From positions 50,736-114,735 of the IMG/VR virus record IMGVR_UViG_3300027969_000058: a stretch of 64,000 bases of DNA. The stretch is one strand, 5' to 3'. Within the stretch, counting starts at the first letter, position 1. Every line of letters begins with the position of its first letter. This DNA is from a virus. Positions 5,976 through 63,163 of the stretch are shown here, piece by piece. Position numbers and translations under genes: made by a program. A model generated the notes under the pieces. That model was not told the origin of the DNA. It ran no database searches and was given only the letters and a program-made list of their open reading frames with translations.

Positions 5976-6167
5976 TTACCAGTGATGTAATGTGTTTGCA
6001 ATAATGAAACAACATGTTATCACATGTATGATCACCCAGAACGTCTTTAAAAACAACGCTATACGTGCTTCTCTTAAAGAAAGTATAGGTATATCCGGAC
6101 GATCTTCGTCTGTTTGGCCCATTAAATGACCTGTTGCTCTTGCCCAAACTTTCTCTAAACTATTCAT
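5976..6167 (-). CDS. 63-residue protein with one membrane segment
   Basis: The start overlaps the stop of the phosphatase gene by ATGA. The N-terminal half is soluble (MNSLEKVWARATGHLMGQTD, EDRPDIPILSLREAR), and a hydrophobic helix follows (IALFLKTFWVIIHVITCCFI). I recognise the N-terminal pattern from other phage small proteins of unknown function. The topology suggests an inner-membrane peptide with its N-terminus in the cytoplasm. Confidence 0.6.
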   Translation of the reverse strand: MNSLEKVWARATGHLMGQTDEDRPDIPILSLREARIALFLKTFWVIIHVITCCFIIANTLHHW

Positions 6168-6661
6168 AGTATAGGAAATTGTCCGTCAAGCCAGGCTTTG
6201 CAGTCTGACCAATTTTTATAAATGTGTGATTTTCCACCAGCTTCGATCCATTCTCGACAATTAGAGTGTCTATCGTCAATTAGGATATCTTCAGGACTTT
6301 TGCAGTATCGCCACTTGTCGTGACTAAATGGTCCAAAGAACACTGGAATACCGGGAAAGTGAGAATTTGCCCACCACACTTTATCCTGTGCCGCAAATGG
6401 CATTGAGTAATCATGTGGTAATGCTGTTAAGAAATATAGTCCACATCCTGTCTTAGCATGATGTGTTCTACACCAATTAACTAATTCAGTAGCGCCGGCC
6501 ATCAACGGCAAGTTACGATAGAAACGCATGTCGTCTTTAACTTTATCCCATTGTTCTTGTGGAATACGATCACCATCTTTGTTCCATCGTAGTTTAAGAA
6601 CTTGTTGTGCGTGGGCATGCCAATCAGCAACAACATCGTCCATGTCTAAATAAATGTTCAT
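6164..6661 (-). CDS. 5'(3')-deoxyribonucleotidase-like HAD phosphatase
   Basis: The 165-residue protein has the HAD nucleophile motif at its start, YLDMDDVVADW (Asp6 nucleophile, Asp8 acid/base). It also has a motif II threonine region (LYFLTALPHD) and a C-terminal acidic motif (EDILIDDRHSNCREW). This set and the length fit 5'(3')-deoxyribonucleotidases, which remove phosphate from dNMPs and are frequent in phages as part of nucleotide-pool control. It lies close to the ribonucleotide reductase cluster. The exact substrate cannot be inferred. A weak sigma-70-type promoter is present immediately upstream. Confidence 0.75.
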   Translation of the reverse strand: MNIYLDMDDVVADWHAHAQQVLKLRWNKDGDRIPQEQWDKVKDDMRFYRNLPLMAGATELVNWCRTHHAKTGCGLYFLTALPHDYSMPFAAQDKVWWANSHFPGIPVFFGPFSHDKWRYCKSPEDILIDDRHSNCREWIEAGGKSHIYKNWSDCKAWLDGQFPIL

Positions 6662-24249: not shown

Positions 24250-27200
24250 CCTATCCAAATCTGCTTAGAAGATCCCGAACCTGCTATCACTCGTACTTCG
24301 CCAGACTCACCGCCCAACTTCAACGATGCAGGTTCATTCGAGTACTCTTGTTTGAACAGTGTATAGCCCTTGGTGAAACTGTAGCCCATAATATCACCAA
24401 CGTGATTTACAGGATAGTACATTCGAGTTACACCAAGATTGTCAATTAGATCAAGATCTACATATGAACTATTGATGTCACTTCTACTGCTCTGTGTTAG
24501 ATAATCAGCAGTAATGTTAATTGTAGGATCTTGAACTATGTTAGATACTATGGTGTTGCTGGCTTCAGCCATCAAGTCTGACACAGTGACATTGCTCACT
24601 GCCATAGTCATACTTGTTGCCACTTCTGCACCTAACTGATTGACTGAGAACACTTCAACAAAGTTGAATATCTGCTCAATGGCAGTGTCAATGTTGTAAG
24701 TAACAAACGGTATGTCATTGAAGTTGTACTTGACAGATGTACTGAAAATAGTAATCACTGCCAATACTGCATCATTGACATTGTTACTGATAATAGTATT
24801 AGATGCTACACTGCTCAGTTCGTTATCGCTTGTTGATGCAACTGAGATAATAACTGCCACTTGAACATCAGCATCGAACACCAACGCTGTGGTATCAACG
24901 AAGTTGAATATTTGGACAATGGCTTCTTCGGCAACTAACTCAACAAACTGTACAGTTTCAACGTTACTGGTTATCTCATTGCTGACAATGTCTACTACAG
25001 CCAAGTTAGTTGTGTCAGTGTATGAGTATACTACTGCTACTTGTACATCAGCGTCAACTTCATTATTTGAAACATCAACGACATTGAATGATTGTATGAC
25101 TATGTCTTCAGCAACTAACTCAACAAACTGTACAGTTTCAACATTGCTGGTTATTTCAGTGCTGACAATGTCAACCACAGCAAGGTTAGCACTATCGTCA
25201 TAGGCATATACTATTGATACTTGTACTTCGGCTGCTATTTCATTATCTGAAATATTAACAACATTGTATGATTGTATGACTATGTCTTCAGCAACTAACT
25301 CAACAAACTGTACAGTTTCAACATCGCTGGTTATTTCAGTGCTGACAATGTCTACTACAGCAAGGACGGCACTATCAACTACATTAACTGCTCTGCTGAT
25401 CAATACAGTAGCATCTATCTCACTGTCGGAAGTATCAACATAGTTGAATATCAGTTGAATTAGATCTTCTGCGGCAACTTCTACGTCAGCATCAGAAACA
25501 ACAAAACTTGTTATGGCGTTATCGCCTGTTGCACCAATGTCGGCAATGTATCCAAATTCTGCGCCGAGGTTGTGTATCTGTACAATGCCAAGGTCTGTTA
25601 CGTTGGTATTATCTAACAACAGGCCTGTACCAGTGACATATGGTCCATCAGTTGGGCCATTTAGTGCATCTGATACAGATATTGTTATTGTATAAGAACT
25701 GTCTGGCTGTTCTTCTACAACTATATCACTGATAGTTCCATAATAGACAAACGGTGAGCCGTCAATTAACAATCGCTGGCCACGGTTTGGAGCAAATACT
25801 TTATCTTCTATGGCTTTGAGCAGTGCGGCCACATCGCCAGGTTGTCCATCACTTCTGTCTTCACCTGCCAGCACAACGTCTGCCGTGTCACCAATCTTGG
25901 CATATTCGAACGGCACTTGTGGTACTGCCAACCGTACTTTGATGGCTTTGTCGTAGAGATCCAGATCAGCGGATTCTGGATAATTGAATATTCGTTTCTC
26001 AATTGCTGTTGCAGCCAACTCGAAGAACTGTATAGTTTCTACATTGCTGGTTATCTCATTGCTGACAATGTCTACTACAGCCAATACAGCAGTGTCATAA
26101 TATACATGTACTAATTTTACTACTACATCTGCATCTAATTCAACATCAACAGTGTTATCAACAACGAATATCTGCTGGATAGTATCTGTAGCAGCCAATT
26201 CAAAGAACTGTACAGTATCAACGTTGCTGGTTATCTCGTTACTGACAATATCTACCAAGGCCAATACAGCAGTGTCATCAATGCTGAATGACTTGCTGAT
26301 TACCACTGTGGCATCAATTTCTAAGGCTGTACTATCAACATAGTTAAATCGTTGTTCAATGGCTTCTGTAGCAGCAAGATCTAAGAATGAACTGTCTTGT
26401 ACATTGCTGGTTATCTCATTGCTGACAATATCTACTACAGCCAACACAGCATTGTCACTGAACGAGTAGGCATTTGATATAACAACAGTAGATTCAATTT
26501 CTAAATCAGTTGTGTCTACATAATTGAATCGCTGTTCAATTGCTTCATTGACACCCATGTCAAGTGCTATGGTATTGTCAAGTTCAGTTATGTACTCAAT
26601 GCTCTGTATGTCTACCAATGCCAACACAGCACTGTCGTCAACTGCATAGATTGCCGATGTAGTAAATGTTGATGTTATCTCAATGTCTGCTGAATCGGCA
26701 ATATTGGATACTTTTATAATGGCGTCAGTAGCAGTTAAGTCTAAGAATGAACTGTCTTGTACGTTACTTGTGTATTCAATGCTCTGTATGTCTACTAATG
26801 CCAACACAGCACTATCAGCAAATACATATGCTAATGATATTACAGTTGTTGCGGCTATTTCTGTGTTGGCACTGTCAACATAATTAAATCTCTGCTCAAC
26901 TGCTTCTGTAGCGGCAAGATCCAAGAATGAACTGTCTTGAACAGTGCTGGTTATCTCATTGCTGACAATATCTACTACAGCCAACACAGCACTATCTGCA
27001 AATACATATGCTAATGAAACTACCGTTGTGGCATCAATTTCTAATGCTGTACTATCAACATAGTTGAATCTCTGCTCAACTGCTTCTGTAGCGGCAAGAT
27101 CCAAGAATGAACTGTCTTGTACATTGCTTGTGTATTCAATACTCTGTATATCTACCAGGGCCAATACAGCACTGTCAACATATATGAACAACTGGCTAAT

Positions 27201-45382: not shown

Positions 45383-46195
45383 TTAGTCTGCTTTACCGCA
45401 CTTAGCACGTTTTGCATTTGTCAATGCGCCATAGTCCATAGGCCACTCTTGTCCTGGGGTAATCTCTTTTGCGTTAGCAGGGAATTTATATGCTACACCT
45501 GCTTGTTTCATAATCTCTGCTACCGGCTTACGGAATACTGTTAGATCGTTACCTAAATTAACATATGGTTTAGTATGGGGGAATACCCAACCTGCAATCT
45601 GTTTTGTATCGTTATTAATTACTATCTTGTAGTAACCGTGTGGAACAATAACGCCAGCACCGATAGTAGGATCGCCAGCACCATAGAATGCGCCAACATA
45701 GATGGTAAATGACTGTTTCTGTTGTACTGCCCAACCTCGGATGTTAGTTTCAAGTAGTTTCCATATGCCACGATTTAAACTGCCATGCTGTGGATACATA
45801 TTAGTCATTAGGAATGATTCGTATTCAACAATCTCACTCCAAGATAAGTCGCCATCCGGAGCGGCATGTCCTTTGTCATAGCCTGTGCCAGCGTAGTCAT
45901 CTGGGCGGGCACCGTTTGGTATGCTCTTGTCTGCTACAAAAGCATTAGTACGTGGCCAGCAGCCTAATGCATTTTGTGGCAGTAGCGTGTAGGCAACATA
46001 AACAGGAATCTTTACAGGAGCATCATAAGCAACCAAATACGCTTCACGGCAGATTGGTTGTGATGGACGCAGGGTGGCTGCAAAGCCATATGGGCTATGA
46101 ACAGCGCAGGCTTGTGGTGGTAGTGGAGCACGTTGCTCCCAGGCTTGTGCTAATCCTGCTGTGATCAGCAAGACTAAGGCTAATAATCGTTTCAT
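45383..46195 (-). CDS. secreted DNA/RNA non-specific endonuclease
   Basis: The 270-residue protein starts with a signal peptide (MKRLLALVLLITAGLAQAWE). The Endonuclease_NS (Serratia nuclease/NucA) core is present: the DRGH-type motif as YDKGHAAPDGD (His110 general base), TNMYPQHGSLNRGIW with the metal-binding asparagine at 141, and strands such as FTIYVGAFYGAG. It would degrade nucleic acid in the periplasm or outside the cell. The DRGH arginine is replaced by lysine, as in several family members. Possible roles are degradation of incoming competitor DNA or of released host nucleic acid. The six cysteines suggest disulphides. Confidence 0.85.
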   Translation of the reverse strand: MKRLLALVLLITAGLAQAWEQRAPLPPQACAVHSPYGFAATLRPSQPICREAYLVAYDAPVKIPVYVAYTLLPQNALGCWPRTNAFVADKSIPNGARPDDYAGTGYDKGHAAPDGDLSWSEIVEYESFLMTNMYPQHGSLNRGIWKLLETNIRGWAVQQKQSFTIYVGAFYGAGDPTIGAGVIVPHGYYKIVINNDTKQIAGWVFPHTKPYVNLGNDLTVFRKPVAEIMKQAGVAYKFPANAKEITPGQEWPMDYGALTNAKRAKCGKAD

Positions 46196-46642: not shown

Positions 46643-47151
46643 GTAAGGTACTCCAGCCACTCTTGATAACGAACTTGGTAAGGCAATCGTTTACGTTTGT
46701 TAACCAGTTCATAGAACTCTGGCTTATAAGGTTTGTACTTAGGTTTATATTTGGTACTTGCACCTTTGTTTGCATTGCATGTGCCGCAGGCTGTAACACA
46801 GTTTTCAAAGCTGGTCTTGCCGCCTTTGCTCACAGGCATAACGTGGTCAAGAGTACATTCTTTTTTCTGCAACACCTTTTCGCAGTACAAGCAAGTGTAC
46901 AAGTCTCGAAGGTATACATTGCTTCTTGAGAATCGAACGTTGCTTTTAGTCTTCATATATTCTTTTAATATGATAACACTGGGAACCTTAGTTTCCCATA
47001 CTGCACTATGTACAATCCATTCTTCGTGCCATGTAAGTACGTGGCACTTTTCAAGTACCATATACTTTATAGCTTCTTGCCAATCAATAGTAGAAACTGG
47101 CAGAAAGCTAACTGGTGCTCCGTCGGCATTGAGTACGAGCGTGTCTGACAT
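46639..47151 (-). CDS. HNH endonuclease
   Basis: The 170-residue protein carries an HNH domain in its C-terminal half: zinc-ligand pairs CLYCEKV and CGTCNANKG, and the catalytic TLDHVMPVSKGGKTSFENCV. The N-terminal half (VLNADGAPVSFLPVSTIDWQ) matches a common type in which an HNH domain follows a small strand region; it occurs in bacteria and phages. Role in DNA processing or as a homing-type nuclease is open. It has its own promoter. Confidence 0.85.
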   Translation of the reverse strand: MSDTLVLNADGAPVSFLPVSTIDWQEAIKYMVLEKCHVLTWHEEWIVHSAVWETKVPSVIILKEYMKTKSNVRFSRSNVYLRDLYTCLYCEKVLQKKECTLDHVMPVSKGGKTSFENCVTACGTCNANKGASTKYKPKYKPYKPEFYELVNKRKRLPYQVRYQEWLEYLT

Positions 47152-47181
47152 GTTAGATTTCCGTGTTAGGTTGAATACTAT

Positions 47182-47210
47182 ATTATATAGTAAAATTGCT
47201 ACTTGAACAA
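47182..47210 (-). promoter_or_regulatory. sigma-70-type promoter in a palindrome
   Basis: TTGTTC (47205-47210), a 17-bp spacer and TATAAT (47182-47187). The -10 lies in a perfect 17-bp palindrome (47176-47192), and the -35 lies in a hairpin (47199-47214) that may terminate the upstream YqgE transcript. It drives the HNH gene. Confidence 0.55.
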
Positions 47211-47224
47211 GCAGTTTTGGTGTG

Positions 47225-47773
47225 TTAAGCTAATATAGATCGAGCAAACTCGTTGCCAGAATGATCGATAGCTTTAGTCCATTGGCTTTGATTATCGAGA
47301 TCAAACACTAAATCTTGATCTGCTGTGGCCACTAACCAACTATGGTTATGTTTAAACGGTGGGTTACCTTGTATCTCATTCTCGAGTTGACCGGGAGTCC
47401 ACCCACACAATCCTACAAACAATCTCCATCGAGCAGGACAGTTGCCCATGGCTAAGTTTGTTAGTATATCTGCACTTGAACTAATAGAAAACGTATCATT
47501 AATTCTCATAGTGTTACTACACTTCCATTCGGCGCTGTGCAACATAGTAAATGCTTTAACATTTACAGGGCCACCAATATGTACAAATCCCGCAACATCT
47601 AAACTTACATTATGTTGTAGTGCAAACTCTTTAATAGTCATTTGACTGCGTTTATTCAACACAAGACCCACAGCGCCTTTGGTATGCTGCTCTGTTAGAA
47701 AAATTGTAGATTTTTCCCAGAAGTTACCTCTTACACTTGGAGGCGCAATGATTAAGTTACCTGTAAAATTCAT
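47225..47773 (-). CDS. YqgE/AlgH family protein
   Basis: The 182-residue protein matches the YqgE/AlgH (UPF0301) family: GNLIIAPPSVRGNFWEKSTI, KGAVGLVLNKRSQMTIKEF, the VHIGGPVNVKAFTMLHS strand, and FVGLCGWTPGQLENEIQGNP. The cellular role of this family is not settled (linked to alginate regulation in Pseudomonas). Phage homologues are known. It touches the fusion hydrolase gene upstream. Confidence 0.85.
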   Translation of the reverse strand: MNFTGNLIIAPPSVRGNFWEKSTIFLTEQHTKGAVGLVLNKRSQMTIKEFALQHNVSLDVAGFVHIGGPVNVKAFTMLHSAEWKCSNTMRINDTFSISSSADILTNLAMGNCPARWRLFVGLCGWTPGQLENEIQGNPPFKHNHSWLVATADQDLVFDLDNQSQWTKAIDHSGNEFARSILA

Positions 47774-49188
47774 TATGCAAATATCGTTCCGCCGACTTGC
47801 TGGCCGCCGGCTGCTTTAAGTTTATGTAAGTATCCAATGTTGGTACCAGGACCATAAGCTGCCGGATTGGCAGCAGTGAATCGTTGAATATCCTTTGGAG
47901 CATTAGGTAAGTGCTCTTTGATACCAGTTAGTATCGAAGTTAACTGTCGTTGTGTTGGGCCTCGAGTAAAATTAGGACTGGCTGCATGTCCGTCGGCACT
48001 GGTTCCAGTAACTGCTTGGAATTGGTTAGGAGCCATTAGCACACTGACAACACTGTTGCCCCACTTACCGGATCTCGTTCTATTTAAGATAACTGCCATG
48101 ACCAGGGCCTGCTCTTCTGAGTTGTTACTTGCTTCTGCAGAAACTGCTCTTAATAGGTAGTTCCATTCTTTCTCGTCCATGTCTCTACCTAAGAACTTGT
48201 CGGCAGTTGCTTTGCCTTCTTTGACTGTTTCGTCTGATGCTAATGCGGCTAAGTCGGCAGCGCCTTTACTATAGTCTGTGCTCTTAACATCCTTGTCTGT
48301 ACTCTTAGTAATTGTAATACCTTTAGTAGCAATCAATTTATTAAGTGCGGCTACAGTTTCTGTGCCCGGATCACCATCTACAGTAAGACTATTTGCCTGT
48401 TGGAATGCTTTAACAGCCTCAACAGTTTCAGGGCCACGTATCCCATCTGGACCATGCTTTGGTAATTTATATCCTAACGCTATCAATGCCTGCTGAACAT
48501 CACGCACAGCAGGGCCTCTACGTCCGGTCGGAACATCAAGGGTGGGTGCAGAAGGCGAGCCGCCTTGGCCTGCTTTGTCTTTGGTGCGAGGTGCGCCTGG
48601 TGCGCCTGTACTGTTTCCTAAGGAAACACCGCTACCAGATTGAGCTGTAACTTTATTGGCTACTTCTTTATAAACAGCCATAGTGGCATGCACGCCATCT
48701 GTTAATGGCTTGCCGTCGATATCGATAATAGGAACATCGATTGCACCTTTGATAGCATTGCGAACTTCTTCTTGATAATCGCCGCCGTAGTATTGAGCAA
48801 GGCCTGCGCCACTGCCTGGGCCATTAGGAAATAGCATAAAATATACTTTGGCGGGCTGTTGTGCTTGAACTTTAGCAACTACATTGGCCACGTTAGATGC
48901 AATAGTAGCTGCCGGAACTGGCTTACGCTGTCCTTTACTATCTATAACTGATCTCGATGCATTAGCAGTGTCGTTGGCACCCTGAGAAACTACTACAATC
49001 GCGCCTGCTGGTAGCTTACTGATATTAGCCAGCATTTGACTGTCTGTACTACTGCGGCCACCGATAGCTAAGTTAACCCAATCTTTGCCTCCAGCGTGTG
49101 CGATAGCCACTGCATGGCTATCGCCTATCGTATAGAATTTTGGGGTTTCACCAGCTTCTTTTACAATTTTAAATTCGTTGAATCTCAT
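47773..49188 (-). CDS. SGNH hydrolase + peptidoglycan-binding + SleB-like hydrolase fusion
   Basis: ATG at 49188 overlaps the upstream stop by ATGA. About 471 residues contain three domains. SGNH esterase, 15-185: block I YTIGDSHAVAI (Ser24), block II Gly in LAIGGRS, block III GAND (70-73), block V DGVHAT. Then a linker, a PG_binding_1 domain (about 225-295: RGPAVRDVQQALIALGYKLP, GIRGPETVEAVKAFQQAN), and a Hydrolase_2 (SleB-type) domain (about 340-430: LLRAVSAEASNNSEEQALVM, NRTRSGKW). It may deacetylate and cut peptidoglycan. The start MRFNEFKIVKEAGET resembles a capsid-targeting peptide, hinting at a virion-carried enzyme. Confidence 0.8.
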   Translation of the reverse strand: MRFNEFKIVKEAGETPKFYTIGDSHAVAIAHAGGKDWVNLAIGGRSSTDSQMLANISKLPAGAIVVVSQGANDTANASRSVIDSKGQRKPVPAATIASNVANVVAKVQAQQPAKVYFMLFPNGPGSGAGLAQYYGGDYQEEVRNAIKGAIDVPIIDIDGKPLTDGVHATMAVYKEVANKVTAQSGSGVSLGNSTGAPGAPRTKDKAGQGGSPSAPTLDVPTGRRGPAVRDVQQALIALGYKLPKHGPDGIRGPETVEAVKAFQQANSLTVDGDPGTETVAALNKLIATKGITITKSTDKDVKSTDYSKGAADLAALASDETVKEGKATADKFLGRDMDEKEWNYLLRAVSAEASNNSEEQALVMAVILNRTRSGKWGNSVVSVLMAPNQFQAVTGTSADGHAASPNFTRGPTQRQLTSILTGIKEHLPNAPKDIQRFTAANPAAYGPGTNIGYLHKLKAAGGQQVGGTIFA

Positions 49189-57348: not shown

Positions 57349-58023
57349 TTAACCTTGTACTGTTACGGCCTGTTCAAATAGCCATTCGTCGTTAAGTGTA
57401 GCATCGCTGATAAACTCTGGATTGTGTACGAAACAACGATCCTTCTTAGACTCGTAAGTGATTACCAAAGTCTTGTCAGTGTCTGCATGATTACGCACAT
57501 GATGCTTCTTAACTGAGTCTGCTGGTTTAACCTGTACAGGATAGTCTCCAATCCAAGCATCAATGCCCTGTGTTTCTTCTTCGGCTGTACTCCAACGATG
57601 TTCAAGGTCAAAGTATTTGGCCACTGCCAGTACACTGTGATACTCACCGCTCATGCCATAATGGGTTTTGTTAATTACCAAGTCTGTGATGTAGGCTTCG
57701 GCAACTGCTTTGGTGAACACAGTTCTATCTAACGGCATCTTTGACAGCATGTCCCAGAGCTTGTCTGCGGCACTGGCTATCTTTGCTTGTCCTTTATGCT
57801 GAGTAAAGTAGAACTCCTGCCATGCTTCAACAGAATGTCCTGTTGTCTGCTTTGTGGCTAAAAACTCTGTAAACAGCTCTTTCATACTGCCCACAGTCTT
57901 TACCTGTGTGGCTTTGCTGTTTTGAGTAGCAATGTTCAACACAGGCTTTGAGTACTTAGGAAAGTCAAAGTCACTGTTGCGTTTAGTCAACGATTGAAAG
58001 TGTTTGGCAGTAAGTGTTAGCAT
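57349..58023 (-). CDS. restriction endonuclease-like protein (PD-(D/E)XK, MjaI-like)
   Basis: The 224-residue protein has a candidate nuclease core: ETQGIDAWIGDYPVQVKPAD (acidic residue, then Q-V-K in place of E-x-K), followed by KTLVITYESKKDRCFV. The order and the GID...PVQVKP wording resemble MjaI-type restriction enzymes. No methyltransferase accompanies it. It is the first gene behind a perfect-consensus promoter, so it is expected very early, as for host-DNA-degrading nucleases. The assignment is tentative. Confidence 0.5.
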   Translation of the reverse strand: MLTLTAKHFQSLTKRNSDFDFPKYSKPVLNIATQNSKATQVKTVGSMKELFTEFLATKQTTGHSVEAWQEFYFTQHKGQAKIASAADKLWDMLSKMPLDRTVFTKAVAEAYITDLVINKTHYGMSGEYHSVLAVAKYFDLEHRWSTAEEETQGIDAWIGDYPVQVKPADSVKKHHVRNHADTDKTLVITYESKKDRCFVHNPEFISDATLNDEWLFEQAVTVQG

Positions 58024-61205: not shown

Positions 61206-61837
61206 AGTATGATTATTTACTGTATATACAGCATATTGAGCATAGGCCCCGCTGTGTGTATATAGACTACAGTAGAGCAAGGCCCCGCTGCGCGGTCTGC
61301 ACAGTTTGGGCCCACAGGCCCCGCTGCGAGTGTCCGTAGCCACGAAGTGGACAGCGCAAAAAAGTTTTTTAGGTGGCCCCTGATAGAGTATTCACTGTAT
61401 ATACAGTATAGAACCAGAGTGGCGCCAGGATTGAGAGGGGATTACTATAAGCGTGTGTGTTTTTTTGGCTGTGTTGTGCGGGGTTTTAAGATGGGTTTTG
61501 ACTATTTGAACTATGCCTCTCTGCCCCAGCCGTCTCAAAAATTTTTTACTCTAAGCCACGCCATCCTGATCTTATGATTTGACTCTAAATCAAGGATTCG
61601 TTGCACAATTTTGCACTTTGTCACACTTTTCCACAGAATCTTGACTCATCAACCGCACTCGTTCACGCTACAGCGTAGGCCATGGGATCTAAATTGCACT
61701 TTTGGCCATTCTACTTGCACTTTGTCACACTGTGTCTAATATAGTAGACATTGCCGTCACTGTGTATGGTATACTGTACATTCACGGCGGTCTCTGTGCT
61801 TGGTCTGCTATATACAGTATATGGACCGGGAGTCATA
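61206..61837. other. non-coding repeat region next to the putative origin
   Basis: No convincing gene. It contains three copies of GGCCCCGCTG exactly 36 bp apart (61245, 61281, 61317), two copies of the palindrome CTGTATATACAG (61220-61231, 61395-61406), and a TTGCAC-based repeat series (61601, 61611, 61694, 61715). Confidence 0.6.
61611..61730 (+). repeat. iteron-like direct repeats (TTGCACTTTGTCACAC)
   Basis: Two exact 16-bp copies at 61611-61626 and 61715-61730, with shorter TTGCAC relatives at 61601 and 61694, all in the same direction. A single-mismatch DnaA box (TTTTCCACA, 61627-61635) abuts the first copy. This resembles the iterons of plasmid-type origins. Confidence 0.5.
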
Positions 61838-62062
61838 ATGATCAATAACCTTGCACACATCCGCTATGGTCAACACAGTGTACACTTAGCTAAGAACACT
61901 GAGACTGGCAGTATAGTCTGTTTTAAGTATAATGATCGACGCTGTGACTTACGTGTATTTGACCGAGACCAAAGTGATCAATGTGCTGAGTACATGCTAC
62001 AGTCAATACCTGCTTTTGGATGGGGTTTTGTTGAGGATTCCGAAGCAGAAAACACAGAATAG
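61838..62062 (+). CDS. small unknown protein next to the DnaA boxes
   Basis: ATG at 61838 after GGGAG. A longer upstream frame has no support. The 74-residue product (MINNLAHIRYGQHSVHLAKN, TETGSIVCFKYNDRRCDLRV) has strand-rich start and an acidic end (GFVEDSEAENTE). Lies between iteron-like repeats and the DnaA-box cluster, where replication initiator genes often sit, but it is too small for a classical initiator. Confidence 0.5.
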   Translation: MINNLAHIRYGQHSVHLAKNTETGSIVCFKYNDRRCDLRVFDRDQSDQCAEYMLQSIPAFGWGFVEDSEAENTE

Positions 62063-62109
62063 GGGCCGGCGGTAATACTATCGTTTGCAATTTTTTCGGC
62101 TGTTTTCTA

Positions 62110-62240
62110 TGTGGATAACTCTGTGGATAACTTTTCGCTGTTGTTTTTTCGCCACAGTGGATAACCTGTGGATAAGTTCTGAGATTTAAAGTTATCCACA
62201 GCCAAAATGTTGTCCACAGGTTATACATCAGTTATCCACA
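62110..62240. other. DnaA-box cluster, putative replication origin
   Basis: Five perfect DnaA boxes TTATCCACA (minus orientation: 62110-62118, 62122-62130, 62167-62175; plus: 62192-62200, 62232-62240) and two single-mismatch boxes (62156-62164, 62210-62218) within 131 bp. The minus-oriented group lies left of the plus-oriented group. Genes point away on both sides: nearly all left ones leftward, all right ones rightward. Confidence 0.75.
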
Positions 62241-62294
62241 GCTGAAAACACAGGCGCTGTCGCCGTCCACCCCCACCTTGTTCGAACAGTCTTT

Positions 62295-62323
62295 ATTATA
62301 CTGTCTTTTGGGCGAACCGTCAA
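62295..62323 (-). promoter_or_regulatory. sigma-70-type promoter reading through the DnaA boxes
   Basis: TTGACG (62318-62323), a 17-bp spacer and TATAAT (62295-62300), leftward. No gene on that strand follows for more than 1 kb, so it may produce a primer or activating transcript for the origin. Confidence 0.6.
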
Positions 62324-62370
62324 CCGATTCAGAGAGACCCTACACAGAGAGTGTGTTCTTTTAGCCACAG

Positions 62371-62399
62371 TTGACGAAAGTGTGTTTTGGCTGTAAAAT
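62371..62399 (+). promoter_or_regulatory. sigma-70-type promoter
   Basis: TTGACG (62371-62376), a 17-bp spacer and TAAAAT (62394-62399), 22 bp before the 49-residue gene at 62422. Confidence 0.6.
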
Positions 62400-62421
62400 T
62401 AGGGCTTAAAACAAGGAAACT

Positions 62422-62839: not shown

Positions 62840-63163
62840 ATGACAAGACGTACACCCAGATCAGATTGCAACTACATCATCTACGCTATGACCAGCGAGC
62901 GGGGTGATTCGTACATTGGCTTGACACGTAAGGCTTTGCCAAACGCAGACAAGGTTGTAGCAGAGCGTTGGCGCAAGCACAAGAGCCGTGCTCGTAACGA
63001 GAACCGCTTGTGGGCCTTGTACATCTACTTGAAGAGCGGCGGGCTTGACATGAACTGGACACACGAGATCATTGCCATTGTGCGTGGTCGTGCTGAAGCT
63101 TATGCTTACGAGCGTGAGCTGGTCAAGTTGATCAAGCCCGAATTGAACGATCAGTACTTATAA
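62840..63163 (+). CDS. GIY-YIG nuclease domain protein
   Basis: The 107-residue protein has the GIY-YIG pattern: NYIIYAMTSERGDSYIGLTR (IY and YIG strands), KWRR-like basic helix (AERWRKHKSRARNENRLW) and the C-terminal glutamate segment YERELVKLIKPELND, where the Glu binds metal. It consists only of the catalytic domain, as in small phage homing or repair nucleases. Strong AAGGAGAGA ribosome site and own promoter. GC-richer than the left genome. Confidence 0.75.
   Translation: MTRRTPRSDCNYIIYAMTSERGDSYIGLTRKALPNADKVVAERWRKHKSRARNENRLWALYIYLKSGGLDMNWTHEIIAIVRGRAEAYAYERELVKLIKPELNDQYL

Follow-up and report, generated by a model that had tools for sequence, protein, structure and literature searches.

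The window analysed here, 64,000 nucleotides long, forms the right end of an IMG/VR virus contig of 114,735 bp. Gene direction switches in this region, as the original prediction had indicated: genes to the left of an array of DnaA boxes are mostly leftward, and small rightward genes are located to the right of it. A small conserved rightward gene (61847..62062, + strand, within the ORF 61751-62062) ends about 50 bp before the boxes. The commonest right neighbour is an early gene coding for a GIY-YIG-domain protein (62840..63163, + strand), present in 13 of 14 related loci in clustering and detected also in L019 by tblastn. The window also codes for a protein with an MjaI-type restriction-endonuclease domain (57349-58023; PF09568, E 3e-29).

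Different repeats are found to the left of the boxes. Three AGGCCCCGCTG(T/C)G 13-mers (61244..61328, + strand) are spaced 36 bp apart, and two copies of the 17-mer TTGCACTTTGTCACACT lie at 61611 and 61715 (61611..61731, + strand). Both sets are shared by some relatives and are absent from the largest one, the 383-kb contig G012. The further near box proposed at 61627 is indeed there (TTTTCCACA) and begins at the end of the first 17-mer copy. The description of these repeats as iteron-like elements next to the boxes was, however, overstated, since they are about 0.4-0.9 kb away and G012 does not have them. The palindrome CTGTATATACAG, a possible operator upstream of small genes, is present twice in the contig, both copies being in this regulatory region (61220-61231 and 61395-61406).

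The array itself occupies positions 62110..62240, in non-coding DNA. The five perfect and two single-mismatch boxes that had been reported in 131 bp were confirmed: exact TTATCCACA boxes lie at 62110, 62122 and 62167 on the - strand and at 62192 and 62232 on the + strand, and the one-mismatch boxes at 62156 (-) and 62210 (+). The left four boxes are thus on the - strand and the right three on the + strand (< < < < > > >), and at the centre is the inverted pair CTGTGGATAAGTT-N10-AAGTTATCCACAG (62166..62201). This is the sole DnaA-box cluster of the 114,735-bp contig and contains five of its six exact boxes. A Poisson estimate based on how often boxes with no or one mismatch occur in the contig puts the expected number of clusters of this density at about 4e-10. 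An Rfam search gave no significant match.

A scan for box arrays retrieved, among others, contigs that are homologous around the array, and their alignment revealed, immediately right of the array, a strongly conserved block (GCCGTCCACCCCCACCTTGTTCGAACA, 62262..62288, - strand). Relatives were then chosen across the virus collection by this block alone, which contains no DnaA box. The scan gave 19 contigs which, once near-duplicates were removed, correspond to 14 distinct loci including the window. The invariance of the block columns in these loci is not evidence of conservation because the search pattern fixed them; boxes and promoters lie outside the pattern. The same block, searched in bacterial genomes for host identification, gave no match.

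In 13 of the 14 distinct loci, four to eight boxes are present within the adjoining 190 bp, always at one array site per contig. The total is 80 boxes, against 0.73 expected by first-order resampling. Near the array centre, 11 of the 14 loci have two exact boxes in convergent orientation, separated by 15-38 nt. The exception, L144 (640-900), is a natural control: it retains the block together with the two promoters, yet every box has been lost, and no box cluster was found anywhere in its 12.5-kb contig. The boxes are therefore not required in every relative, and the promoter module can occur without them. In most related contigs (G000, L042, L063, L138, L144, L149, L019 and L113) the array site is within about 2 kb of a contig end, which indicates that assemblies tend to break near the early region.

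The substitutions present in the boxes concentrate at two positions. Among the 25 one-mismatch boxes, 20 are altered at position 3 or 5 (binomial 1e-9). Eleven of the 25 vary at position 5, which DnaA tolerates and which is the degenerate N of the consensus TTWTNCACA (PMC5835720), and nine carry an A-to-G change at position 3, a concentration that falls outside the strict TTWTNCACA. Same-strand neighbours are spaced by exactly 11 or 22 bp in 31 of 50 cases, distances close to one or two turns of the helix. Six pairs of related loci were compared: identity is 86% in box bases against 68% in spacers (p 5e-11, a value to be read bearing in mind that bases within one locus are not fully independent). 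The positions of the mismatches, the 11/22-bp spacing and the better conservation of boxes than of spacers make host DnaA the likely binder. The sequence data support a predicted DnaA-binding array for this T4-superfamily phage lineage, and the array is conserved across relatives.

Two divergent sigma-70 promoters lie to the right of the conserved block. The leftward promoter (TTGACG-17-TATAAT, 62295..62323, - strand) reads into the array; its -35 and -10 are present in 14 of 14 loci, in all of them in the form TTGAC-17-TATAAT. The rightward promoter (TTGACG-17-TAAAAT, 62371..62399, + strand) reads into small early genes, and all 14 loci have a promoter here. In some relatives a TTAGCCACA sequence (62361-62369 in the window) abuts its upstream edge, on the -35 side. 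The conserved block coincides with the predicted start of the leftward transcript, which would begin in the palindrome TGTTCGAACA and continue through the G-rich run GGTGGGGGTGGACGGC into the boxes, located directly downstream. There is no gene on the strand of this transcript for about 0.9 kb, and it would be antisense to the small conserved gene. A coding leader expressed from the leftward promoter (ATGTTCGAACAT...) is not favoured, since its ATG has been lost in the window and the frames end at different places, as judged by eye.

According to nearest-neighbour energies, the leader ranks third among RNA:DNA-hybrid sites on both strands of the 114.7-kb contig, and that of G012 is within the top 2e-5 of windows for the same propensity. 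We infer that an R-loop could form at the leftward leader. Clusters of C in the template stabilise R-loops in the ColE1 and mitochondrial origins, and T4 oriF and oriG are promoter-driven R-loop origins that consist of a promoter and an unwinding element (PMC4412123). G-rich clusters beside the arrays of unrelated lineages were also considered as support for R-loop priming and were dropped: 21% reached p<0.05, against 5% expected, and this modest enrichment was mostly due to one family and pointed away from the array.

With respect to other hallmarks of origins, the cumulative GC-skew of the contig does have its minimum near 61-62 kb, as anticipated for an origin, and in G012 a local minimum at 87 kb adjoins the array. 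However, when the four-fold sites of G012 are read in coding orientation, their skew lies at -0.28 to -0.30 whichever strand carries the gene and is unaffected by which side of the array the gene is on; a single class deviates, and it is small (16 plus-strand genes to the left). The minimum is consequently explained by the change in gene direction; it carries no information on replication and was rejected as origin evidence. No AT-rich unwinding element was found inside or directly beside the array; the least stable 40-mers are about 190-470 bp to its right in the window and elsewhere in G012. A match to the E. coli IHF consensus, which may not be that of the host, is absent from 11 of the 14 loci and never falls inside the array. 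No Rep match was obtained among the neighbouring proteins scanned. A plasmid-type origin, as first proposed for this site, is therefore unsupported: the repeats lie away from the boxes and are missing in G012, and neither an IHF site nor an AT-rich element abuts the array.

The T4-like character attributed to this phage holds for the lineage, though not for the window's own contig, which is a fragment without gp23. T4-type gp23 is present in the array-bearing contigs G012 (383,411 bp) and G014 (108,205 bp), with E values of 1e-80 or better. G012 also codes for a relative of T4 nrdC.10, a primase, a UvsW-like helicase and a replicative helicase that the databases name DnaB-like, whose closest structures we take to be those of T4 gp41. 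The gp41-like helicase, the primase and the UvsW-like helicase are located 16-25 kb to the right of the array. No tyrosine integrase was found in G012, and a search for the gp59 loader was uninformative, since it matched nothing anywhere. Completeness is not claimed for G012: its first 100 bp occur again at 380,638, but the match does not hold when 2.8 kb are compared without gaps. Among the phages checked, no such array was found in T4, cyanophage S-BM3, Actinomycetia phage DSL-LC01 or jumbo phage PA5oct. A phage-borne DnaK-like chaperone, related to huge-phage copies, is coded by L003 (10776-12695; contig 46776-48695).

A scan of the collection for box arrays gave at least 120 stretches, against one with the reversed control pattern, and shows that predicted DnaA-box arrays are widespread in viral contigs. 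Arrays of the same 9-mer recur in unrelated phage lineages, and G021, a gp23-bearing contig of another lineage, has one as well.

Several of these arrays can be described individually. L056, a gp23-positive contig of 148,708 bp, AT-rich in composition and belonging to a second T4-superfamily lineage, carries about nine exact boxes in 350 bp (5998-6345). The SP6-like Klebsiella phage Kp7 (L175, ON148527.1) has five exact boxes on one strand near the Ocr gene (63-222), inside an apparent terminal repeat, and the array is repeated with identical spacing at the right end of the record (45822-45981). In a separate, apparently marine, T7-like lineage (L009, L012, L035, L057, L059, L086, L102, L116 and others), which has genes for DNA polymerase, primase/helicase, terminase and portal, dense DnaA arrays directly adjoin a GGGGGAGGGG run. 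The 128-kb Lactococcus phage LW81 (L176, KY554777.1) has seven exact boxes (24593-24956) in a gene-free stretch of 1 kb.

In the reading that we favour, which has about an even chance of being right, the site is a transcription-coupled origin at which a large phage of the T4 superfamily begins early replication with the help of host DnaA, and a role of the array in the first round of replication is plausible. The phased, inverted, single, non-coding and promoter-coupled layout beside early genes fits such an origin. Upon phage entry, host DnaA would bind the array and bend or open it, while host RNA polymerase would start the leftward non-coding RNA. The G-rich 5' part of this RNA could stay hybridised to the C-rich template, forming an R-loop which, together with the DnaA-opened DNA, would provide a primer and an entry point for the helicase in the first round. 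From there, replication would pass to the T4-type helicase, primase and UvsW-like helicase that the phage itself encodes, as seen in the 383-kb relative. In favour of this early origin we counted the uniqueness of the array, which is beyond chance, its boxes in 13 of 14 block-selected loci, the mismatch positions, 11/22-bp spacing and conservation of these boxes, the promoters in all 14, the R-loop-prone leader, the gp41-like helicase, primase and UvsW-like helicase nearby in G012, and the precedents of ColE1, mitochondrial and T4 origins for R-loops and of lambda for DnaA. It is tempered by the box-less L144, by the lack of an unwinding element or IHF consensus at the array, by the phage's own T4-type replication enzymes, by the absence of a replichore skew signal and of arrays in T4 and the other named T4-like phages checked, and by the similar array of Kp7, present at the two genome ends, where an origin would hardly be expected.

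The phasing and orientation of the boxes would also suit a DnaA-binding complex devoted to regulation or titration. A datA-like sink, in which the array, present in many phage copies, would draw off DnaA or accelerate the hydrolysis of its ATP and so keep the host chromosome from starting further rounds of replication, is an unlikely explanation. Boxes in multiple copies titrate DnaA, and the four to eight strong boxes are similar to E. coli datA, which has two consensus and four one-misfit boxes (PMC5835720). The arrays near early regions of unrelated lytic phages also point this way, including that of the apparent Kp7 terminal repeat, where an origin is less expected. However, a sink needs neither 11/22-bp phasing nor an inverted layout nor a fixed place beside divergent promoters, and datA requires IHF for DnaA-ATP hydrolysis, whereas the array has no site for it by the E. 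coli consensus, which may differ from that of the host.

We are similarly doubtful about an early promoter switch without any replication start, in which array-bound DnaA would act as a roadblock or activator of leftward transcription and would tune the rightward promoter. The boxes immediately downstream of the predicted leftward start, the presence of both promoters in 14 of 14 loci and the TTAGCCACA sequence abutting the rightward -35 in several of them would agree with it, and DnaA is a known transcription factor (PMC8203912). The leftward transcript, without a same-strand gene for about 0.9 kb and antisense to a small gene, leaves however little obvious to regulate. DnaA-controlled promoters usually carry fewer than four to eight boxes, a number that the array reaches.

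The remaining alternatives are very improbable. An iteron-type site for a phage-encoded initiator, resembling DnaA boxes by chance, would account for short direct and inverted repeats at one non-coding site per contig, but the repeat is the exact E. coli R1-type box with 11 of 25 variants at the degenerate position 5, arrays of this 9-mer also occur in unrelated phage lineages, and the conserved AAA+ early protein, considered as a DnaA/DnaC-like initiator and rejected, is the T4 nrdC.10 relative and is also present in the box-less L144. A T4-type R-loop origin with incidental boxes would be in line with L144, which has promoters and a G-rich leader without boxes, and with the promoter-driven R-loops of T4 origins (PMC4412123), but 80 boxes against 0.7 expected, under selective constraint, are not incidental.

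The putative early origin shares properties with several known systems. As in E. coli-type oriC, R1-type boxes are clustered, phased and in opposite orientations, with transcription nearby; however, adjacent AT-rich 13-mers and an IHF consensus are missing, and the lineage has helicase and primase genes of its own. In P1 oriR and RK2 oriV, too, boxes cluster within a short non-coding stretch, but the phage array has no iterons beside them and its large relatives lack an integrase. With T4 oriF and oriG it has in common the T4-superfamily lineage and a promoter whose transcript can form an R-loop, whereas T4 has no DnaA-box array, and the promoter at the array is of the sigma-70 type with near-perfect -35 and -10, with no strong unwinding element in the array. 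Like datA, it combines several strong and one-misfit boxes in non-coding DNA; unlike datA, it lacks an IHF consensus, is helically phased and is flanked by divergent promoters.

Among phages, further parallels are found in lambda and in a Pseudomonas phage. DnaA binds lambda DNA near the pO promoter (PMC3985674), and work cited in that article reports a DnaA-stimulated activation of ori-lambda. In lambda, phage promoters (pO/pR) adjoin DnaA-binding sites and transcription is coupled to replication, which shows that a link between DnaA, promoters and the replication of a phage is possible (PMC3985674), but the boxes are few and the phage brings an O initiator of its own, while the array has four to eight strong boxes and no known initiator. 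The origin of the lytic Pseudomonas phage vB_PseuGesM_254 was likewise called by Ori-Finder from DnaA boxes, although, in the part of the report available, it is a single-genome software prediction without comparative box evidence (PMC11512268). Skew-based origin claims exist for huge phages (PMC7162821) and for T4-like Vibrio phages (PMC5107563). In a literature search that covered few subscription papers, no account of a DnaA array conserved among phages of the T4 superfamily came up.

T4-type phages are a standard example of replication start without the bacterial initiator, and we know of no recruitment of bacterial DnaA by T4 itself. The comparative data suggest that the large T4-related phages carrying the array do recruit this host replication-start protein. 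More tentatively, they may use a hybrid start that has not been described before, combining host DnaA on a phased array with a non-coding, G-rich RNA that a pair of divergent promoters provides specifically for priming, similar arrays having arisen independently in other lytic phages; this possibility is somewhat doubtful as a whole. A constrained array at a fixed place across the whole lineage indicates that host DnaA is exploited by these phages, whether as initiator, as regulator or as a protein to be taken out of circulation.
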